Assembly: GCA_040757115.1 (NCBI GenBank)
Contig: JBFLYA010000078.1
Coordinates: 10,050 to 16,304 of the forward strand
DNA from: a bacterium
Lineage (GTDB): Bacteria > UBA9089 > CG2-30-40-21 > SBAY01
Reading direction: 5' to 3'
DNA length: 6,255 nt
The notes beneath the pieces were generated by a model. The model ran no database searches. It worked only from the letters and a program-made list of their open reading frames with translations, and was not told the origin of the DNA. The translations under genes were made by a program, and so were the position numbers. Positions within the stretch are counted from its first letter, which is position 1. Each line of letters begins with the position of its first letter. Below are positions 136 to 1,778 of this stretch, one piece after another.

Positions 136-666
136 TTGAGTTTGGATAGAGGATATGATGAGATTGAAGTAAGAGAACATGTAGAGAAAGATGAGACAAA
201 AGCCTATATTAGTCTTGCCAAAAGGGAAAACAAATATGGTGTTTATTCCACAGAGATGTTTGAGTTCAATAAAGAAGGTGATCTTCTTTGTCCAGCAGGA
301 AAGCAAATGAAGAGGTTGGGTAAGAAACCTCGTAAAGATAGGAAGATAAGGTTTGAAGGGATAGCTTGTGGTGAATGTGAATTGAGAGGATTTTGTACTA
401 CTGTAAGTTACCGAACAGTAGAGATTATTGAAGATGAGCATAAGAGGAGACAACAAGCAAGGGAATTAAATCAAACACCTGAACATAAGAAAGCGATAAA
501 GATGCAATTAAGGATTGAAGCAGGTATTGGTCATCTAAAAGATTATCATCTGTTGCGGAGAGCATTTTATCGAAATAAAGAGATGATAAGGATTCAACAG
601 TTGATGTCAGTAAGTTCAGCAAATATTGAAAAACTTGTTCGGGCAAAGGGTCATATGGAATTATAA
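136..666 (+). pseudogene. IS1182-type DDE transposase, C-terminal remnant
   Basis: This is the C-terminal part of a cut-and-paste DDE transposase of the IS1182 kind (DDE_Tnp_1_6-like domain). The product begins almost at the second catalytic Asp (LDRGYDEIE, D4 in this numbering). It continues with the family's Cys-rich insert (CPAGKQM, then C78, C81 and C87 in CGECELRGFC) and ends with the third acidic residue, E128, in RIEAGIGHLKDYHLLRR. The N-terminal half, with the DNA-binding region and first catalytic Asp, is absent. The frame is open only from 103, after stops at 67-69 and 100-102. The PKEL codons just before 136 may still be transposase. TTG136 is an artefactual start without a ribosome binding site. 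The hairpin repeat and its tandem tail abut the truncation. It should be inactive. Confidence 0.85.
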
Positions 667-870
667 GGTTTATTATTTCTGGTAAAGGCTATCGTTTTTC
701 TCAATATAGGAGTGTTTTAAATGCTATAATTTTACCTCAGAGAGGAGAAAGATTTAAGATTTTAAAGATAGCATTCATAAAACCCGGTTTTTAAGTTGTC
801 GGACTTCTTATGTTAAAAATTAAAGTCAAAACCGATAAGAAAAAAAGGTAGATTTTATGTCAACAGCCTG
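667..870. other. non-coding spacer, probable IS 3' remnant
   Basis: No convincing gene is visible. The stretch holds a perfect 8-bp inverted repeat, AATGCTAT (720-727) against ATAGCATT (768-775), with 40 bp between the arms. There are also AT-rich words that could be decayed transposon end sequence. No terminal inverted repeat partner for the transposase remnant was identified. Confidence 0.4.
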
Positions 871-1091: not shown

Positions 1092-1107
1092 TTCGAGGTC
1101 TGACCCC
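1092..1107. repeat. 16-bp terminal repeat, left arm of an inverted pair
   Basis: TTCGAGGTCTGACCCC here is the perfect reverse complement of 1745-1760 (GGGGTCAGACCTCGAA). The arms enclose the orphan secreted gene and span 669 bp overall. The GGTCTGACCCC core is shared with the 69-bp hairpin repeats, so all belong to one repeat family. Confidence 0.8.
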
Positions 1108-1202
1108 ATATCCTTCTTATAGTAGTATGTAGCGAAGGTCGATTTATTCTTGCATGAAGTAAATTAAGTAAAAATTCAGAAGGCAGGAATAGGAAAAGCT
1201 AC

Positions 1203-1208
1203 TATAAT
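1203..1208 (+). promoter_or_regulatory. possible -10 element for the secreted orphan gene
   Basis: A perfect TATAAT lies 26 bp before the start codon. I find no convincing -35 at 16-18 bp and no TG extension, so this is a weak call. It would put transcription start near 1214, just before the ribosome binding site. Confidence 0.3.
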
Positions 1209-1233
1209 TTTTAACAAAAGGAGGTGATAAAAG

Positions 1234-1725
1234 ATGAAAAAGGCGATATTAACAACACTGTTAGCAATAAGCTTTATGCTCACTATGACTGCAACTGCGA
1301 TAAGTCATCGGGTGATCACTGTGTGGTTATGTGATTCTGATAATTATGTGTACGAATTAGGAGTAGAGATGCCAAGTCCGGGTGCAACCCTCCCTCATTT
1401 CGATCTCGCTGGTTATCGCTTTATAGGAACACCAACAGTAAATGCTGAACCGTACCCTGTTGATGGCGCTGCATTGCTAGACTACTGGAACTTTCTTCAA
1501 ATAGGGTTGGAATGCCAATGTTTGTGGCTTCTAAACAACGAGCAGTTCATATTTACTGTCTACAATGTACGGGCAGTTCTCAGCTACGATTACGAGGACA
1601 ACCAATGGAAAGGGACACTACATTGGCGCAATCCGGACAAGAATAGGCAGGGAATAGCAACAAAGGCATGGTTACAATTTACACCACCACCACCACCAGG
1701 ACCGCCTCTCACTCCTCGTGAGTGA
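1234..1725 (+). CDS. orphan secreted protein, function unknown
   Basis: I do not recognise this 163-residue protein. Residues 1-22 are a typical Sec signal peptide: KK at 2-3, a hydrophobic stretch 4-18, and likely cleavage after ATA near 22. The mature part is rich in Trp and Tyr (W31, W85, W98, W125, W131, W146) and has three Cys (C33, C94, C96). It has no recognised catalytic motif. It ends in a Pro-rich tail (PPPPPGPP, 151-158), partly encoded by five CCA repeats at 1684-1698. The start is certain: AAAGGAGGTGA (1217-1227), a full match to the anti-Shine-Dalgarno end of 16S rRNA, sits 6 bp upstream. Base use is richer than the housekeeping genes (29 G/C in 1381-1440 against 14 in 3361-3420). 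It stands alone between inverted ends of the mobile repeat family, which suggests acquisition. A small extracytoplasmic beta-rich protein is a guess. Confidence 0.75.
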   Translation: MKKAILTTLLAISFMLTMTATAISHRVITVWLCDSDNYVYELGVEMPSPGATLPHFDLAGYRFIGTPTVNAEPYPVDGAALLDYWNFLQIGLECQCLWLLNNEQFIFTVYNVRAVLSYDYEDNQWKGTLHWRNPDKNRQGIATKAWLQFTPPPPPGPPLTPRE

Positions 1726-1744
1726 TTAAAGGAGGGGAGCAGAG

Positions 1745-1778
1745 GGGGTCAGACCTCGAATTGAGAAAATAGTTGACG
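1745..1778. repeat. RAYT-element left-end fragment (inverted-pair right arm)
   Basis: GGGGTCAGACCTCGAA (1745-1760) pairs perfectly with 1092-1107. Overlapping it, the 23 bp at 1756-1778 are identical to 871-893, the sequence that leads into the RAYT promoter. Here the homology stops right after TTGACG, there is no -10 element or transposase codon, and the next hairpin repeat begins 10 bp later. It is therefore only the left tip of a second element copy. Confidence 0.75.

Follow-up and report, generated by a model that had tools for sequence, protein, structure and literature searches.

A secreted-protein gene between end repeats of two broken TIRYT elements is preceded by a predicted structured 5′ leader

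Introduction

A small secreted-protein gene enclosed by exact inverted repeats raises a simple question: do the repeats mark a mobile unit that carries the gene, or do unrelated sequences merely adjoin? We addressed this question in a stretch of 6,255 nucleotides (G000:C78:10050-16304, hereafter called the window) from a 4.3-Mb genome in 462 contigs, G000. Since this assembly is fragmented, some element ends fall at contig breaks. The genomes used for comparison included one of the same genus (G001) and a family relative (G003); all genomes with members of the leader described below belong to one order. G001 keeps the whole arrangement including both arms, at approximately 99% identity over this block and with 18 nt extra at the right arm. 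At the corresponding locus, the DNA that precedes the PorV-like gene is different in G002, G003 and G004, so that none of these genomes offered an empty site for comparison. The window's UPF0164/PorV-like outer membrane protein has 34 matches within G000 alone.

Results

The inverted arms are end repeats of two different broken elements

The features on the left and right of the gene are as follows.

871-893, + strand: decayed TIRYT left end (direct repeat D2), first 11 bases absent, adjoining an IS fragment
926-1060, + strand: truncated N-terminus of a TIRYT (Y1) transposase, 44 codons and then a stop
1056-1103, + strand: C-terminal end of that transposase, its final 15 codons with the stop
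1092-1107, + strand: left arm, tip of a decayed TIRYT right end that also encodes the last transposase codons and stop (FKKKVESILNFLFEV plus stop ends inside it)
1745-1778, + strand: right arm plus 18 nt, a solo left end (GGGGTCAGACCTCGAATTGAGAAAATAGTTGACG), its last 23 nt identical to the decayed left end at 871-893

The arms had been annotated as perfect, and they are: TTCGAGGTCTGACCCC at 1092-1107 (+) and at 1745-1760 (-) are exact reverse complements of 16 bp (2 exact matches, versus 0 in 200 dinucleotide shuffles). They are the end repeats (TIRs) of two different broken TIRYT/TIRtron elements, with the motif GGGGTCAG. The initial annotation described them as the inverted ends of a RAYT-type element. 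Each arm is indeed an element end, but the two ends belong to different elements and the gene lies outside both, because the left arm ends a transposase relic and a 34-nt left end begins with the right arm.

An intact element was found in the family relative (G003:C35:10609-9568, - strand). It begins GGGGTCAGACCTCGAA and ends TTCGAGGTCTGACCCC, has terminal inverted repeats of the GGGGWSAS type (GGGGTCAG) at both ends, and extends from GGGGTCAGACCTCGAAAGCAGAATTAACTTGAC through an unbroken transposase frame to the tail KKKVEEIVNSAFEV plus stop, the last codons of which lie within the right end. The encoded protein matched Y1_Tnp (Pfam PF01797, E 3.8e-13) and a DnaA C-terminal HTH (PF08299, E 2e-7, with 31.3 bits slightly under the gathering score of 31.5). 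This combination corresponds to TnpAY1 subclass 2.1.2 (PMC6006769), and the repeats fit the motif GGGGWSAS published for TIRYT/TIRtron repeats (PMC3733652; PMC6006769). In the window relic (926-1103), the transposase N-terminus, 83% identical in nucleotides to the intact G003 copy, is joined to C-terminal codons by a large internal deletion; these codons were compared with the intact-copy tail KEFKKKVEEIVNSAFEV plus stop. The HTH domain present in the intact copy is deleted in that of the window, and the left-arm junction is identical to that of the intact element.

Intact elements run GGGGTCAGACC...GGTCTGACCCC, from left end to right end. The window pair has the opposite order, with a right end, the gene and then a left end. 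The ends therefore face as predicted by the simpler of two readings proposed initially, in which the right end of one decayed element and the left tip of another have a gene caught between them. Three observations support this reading: how intact copies end in relatives, the transposase codons entering the left arm, and the left-end sequence that extends beyond the right arm. The same left end, with a similar 5′ flank, was found at G001:C339, and another TIRYT copy, at G001:C40, is interrupted by the contig end.

The elements share NHYH and YIHLNP motifs, a DnaA-type HTH, flanking TIRs with GGGGWSAS, and dispersed TIR monomers and dimers with the published TIRYT/TIRtron family (Di Nocera 2013; TnpAY1 subclass 2.1.2, Quentin 2018), whose members are RAYT relatives. 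They differ in that the transposase stop codon lies within the right TIR, the TIR dimers make up a set of REPIN-like sequences and the window copy is dead.

Several other mobile or repeated sequences were observed. A 5′-truncated IS fragment with a DDE_Tnp_1_6 transposase occupies window positions 136-870. The decayed TIRYT left end comes next and is short of precisely 11 bases at its start, a pattern suggestive of an IS insertion into this end repeat. A strong IS200-type Y1 transposase match lies inside a 1120-aa open frame at G000:C205:1846-2208. A repeat of about 120 nt at 1874-1995 (AATCCGCG...) has a 90% copy at G001:C56:11713-11591 and possibly represents another small repeat family.

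The enclosed gene has a remote paralogue

1217-1228, + strand: Shine-Dalgarno sequence AAAGGAGGTGAT; comparably strong sites precede other secreted genes
1234-1725, + strand: gene for a 163-aa secreted protein with a signal-peptide-like N-terminus; remote paralogue of G000:C74:8512-8955

The gene was correctly recognised as secreted, strongly ribosome-bound and promoter-poor: the 163-aa ORF has a signal-peptide-like N-terminus, lies behind AAAGGAGGTGAT, and a scan of its strand from 1050 to 1800 gave no site resembling a sigma-70 promoter. It had also been called an orphan, a description at odds with the paralogue on C74. Alignment of the mature parts scored 61, versus 28 ± 5 for shuffled sequences (0/1000 as high); similarity to a protein on G000:C2 was weaker (score 45, 7/1000 shuffles as high). 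Scans of Pfam, PHROGs, PDB sequences, GTDB and IMG/VR returned neither a matching family nor homologues outside the genus, two weak matches in G027 being rejected as proline-run noise. Two structure predictions gave pLDDT values of 36.6 and 41.5 and no usable model. The G001 copy differs in four codons, three of them non-synonymous, which is too few to judge selection.

A base composition unlike that of the neighbours was confirmed for the gene itself (G+C 0.451 versus 0.28-0.37), but other small secreted genes of the two genomes have comparable values, from 0.40 to 0.454 against a sample mean of 0.364. A foreign origin argued from G+C alone was therefore rejected.

A conserved motif with covarying helices precedes secreted-protein genes

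1129-1202, + strand: conserved leader RNA (predicted), 74 nt, made of P1 (1129-1133/1198-1202), 5′ core GAAGGUCGAU (1134-1143), P2 (1144-1153/1183-1192) and 3′ core GAAAA (1193-1197)

A query made of the DNA between the arms matched the upstream regions of other secreted genes. Members were searched for with the 5′ strand and core only (GTAGCGAAGGTCGA, one mismatch), which returned members in G000, G001, G004 and G006; as the 3′ strand was left out of this search, its complementarity provides independent evidence. Other matches to this 14-mer in G002, G003, G005 and G008 lacked the rest of the motif. The consensus order is P1 (approximately 5 bp), the 5′ core GAAGGUCGAU, a variable P2 (5-11 bp), the 3′ core GAAAA and the closing strand of P1.

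Ten members, three of them in tandem, were identified in five genomes of one order: the window copy, G000:C2:38838 and C123:3955, G001:C303:3917-4101, G004:C459, G006:C160 and C83, and G007:C214. The members lie in sense orientation upstream of ORFs with signal-peptide-like N-termini. At G001:C303, three tandem copies within 185 nt precede a 319-aa signal-peptide ORF, an arrangement familiar from gene-control RNAs. The paralogue on C74 has no such leader.

Among the ten members (including G007:C214 and G006:C83, both found with the covariance model), 92 of the 100 tested positions were paired, and 0 of 20000 partner permutations were as high; in the eight-member alignment (A1), two-sided changes in at least one sequence occurred at 6/9 pairs versus 1.9 in shuffles, and a shift by one to three columns abolished the covariation signal. 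The family is small and comes from related genomes of one order, so that these pair counts are not independent events and are inflated by relatedness. The window leader folded modestly better than its shuffles (z -1.87).

The covariance model gave 48-59 bits in G000, G001, G004 and G006, and lower scores in G006:C83, G007 and G003. The match at G003:C126, without the 5′ strand of P1 or a secreted ORF behind it, is probably degenerate; weak matches at G000:C3 and G003:C162 were plausible by eye and were left out of the counts. No strong match outside the order was found with the model among 118 genomes, and a search of Rfam gave no match to the leader that reached or approached the gathering score. 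Scanning 84,980 GTDB species with a partial exact pattern returned 36 loci, two of which scored 58-59 bits. These two are deposited as 'Marinifilum sp. isolate IMS_BF-2', a label that may not reflect lineage, and 'bacterium isolate Yes70-11'; they apparently belong to the same order, their coordinates and scores agreeing with the G006 and G004 members. Matches to the RNA core in viral contigs scored at about chance level and were set aside. In the literature searched, the core string GAAGGUCGAU had no relevant context.

Most members have no clear promoter directly upstream, and the lack of a recognisable promoter beside the motif leaves room for a longer leader. For the window copy, we do not claim promoter disruption by the left arm, the other members being mostly without a recognisable promoter too. 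As a side observation, the weak match at G003:C162:4266-4317 lies directly behind a promoter resembling that of the TIRYT left end, and the ORF of about 70 aa that follows it (MGYETPTIELLGDYEMGEVQGEG...) resembles a peptide precursor.

Arm-like sites are dispersed across the genome

11-81, + strand: 71-nt palindrome, second copy
1788-1858, + strand: 71-nt REPIN-like palindrome with the same GGTC(A/T)GACC ends; related copies elsewhere in G000

Seven exact sites of TTCGAGGTCTGACCCC were found in G000; allowing up to three mismatches, there were 93 sites versus 5 for a reversed control, 13 of the arm-like sites being on contig C78 alone. Many form REPIN-type palindromes of 60-71 nt. When all sites with up to three mismatches were sorted into neighbouring pairs, 21 were left end-right end pairs within 100 nt (REPIN type) and seven were right end-left end pairs 100-3000 nt apart. 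The window pair is one of these seven outward pairs and needs no special explanation. Like REPINs/BIMEs, the palindromes are dispersed and consist of two inverted end repeats spanning approximately 60-70 nt in total; unlike them, they have TIR-type GGGGTCAG ends, and no GTAG/GTGG tetranucleotide foot was seen in those sequences that were inspected. Upstream of the window (G000:C78:3450-9848), a 1413-aa ORF and Rhs-like core fragments, the latter followed by short ORFs, may represent an Rhs array broken by the same end repeats.

Discussion

Nothing shows that the arms have moved the gene. A cargo cassette had been proposed, in which a TIRYT enzyme acting in trans would recognise both arms and move the enclosed gene as a non-autonomous unit. 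The exact inverted repeats around one gene, and the related transposase genes present in the genus, speak for it. Yet the arms face outwards relative to intact elements, the left one running on from transposase codons and the right one into left-end sequence. The initial annotation suggested looking for the arm pair around other genes; G000 contains no element-type (left end-right end) pair 100-3000 nt apart, so that no other genes lie between properly oriented arms, and no arms were found near six leader loci or near the C74 paralogue. A cassette is thus highly improbable. Another route to the same arrangement would be a tandem duplication of a transposase-plus-gene block, or a circle inserted by recombination at the left end, with later loss of the second transposase copy. 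The exact 23-bp direct repeat (871-893 and 1756-1778), the first copy of which is short of only its first 11 bases, is what such an event could leave behind. Solo left ends of the same type nevertheless occur elsewhere without such a gene (G000:C54 and C298; G001:C339), a second copy of the gene was not found, and we consider this history unlikely.

We think it likely, instead, that two unrelated things adjoin here: TIRYT end repeats, and a secreted gene with its own structured 5′ leader that regulates in cis. An internally deleted TIRYT to the left of the gene supplies its right end, and a solo left end lies to the right. As for the leader, protein dimers could also bind to its inverted repeats, whose spacing elements are conserved, and the motif might then be a DNA-level operator recognised by a regulator. 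The length and sequence of P2, however, vary freely while pairing is kept, and the conserved core, with 10 nt on one side and 5 nt on the other, lacks symmetry and stands ahead of the gene in sense orientation in every case. There is accordingly little probability that the motif works as DNA rather than as RNA.

The motif is most likely a regulatory 5′ leader for secreted proteins, and it may be a riboswitch. We infer that it is transcribed and acts in cis, by translational control. The leader would probably control the expression of secreted or surface proteins: the conserved GAAGGUCGAU/GAAAA internal loop would sense a signal, either a small ligand or an RNA-binding protein, and sensing would alter access to the nearby ribosome-binding site. 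In the window, P1 ends at 1202, 14 nt ahead of the Shine-Dalgarno sequence (1217). A ligand- or protein-induced change of ribosome-binding-site access is the best-supported guess, drawn by analogy from leaders already known for surface-protein genes. The leader resembles riboswitch-like leaders of secreted or surface protein genes, such as the c-di-GMP riboswitch ahead of the gene for a collagen adhesin (PMC4933901), in being a structured 5′ leader near the ribosome-binding site of secreted-protein genes, once in tandem. It differs from them in having two helices that flank a 10/5-nt internal loop, the core GAAGGUCGAU/GAAAA and no Rfam match. We tentatively suggest, as a possibility rather than the expected outcome, that the leader at 1129-1202 represents a new riboswitch class, occurring singly and in tandem (three copies) and controlling secreted-protein genes in one order.

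Where end repeats of this kind occupy about 90 sites in a genome, a gene can lie between exact inverted repeats without belonging to a cassette. The leader is a better lead than the arms: a small motif with a strict core and clear paired changes, it occurs once three in a row. Should it prove to bind a ligand, the leader would allow one to ask directly which cues these bacteria sense as they alter their secreted proteins.
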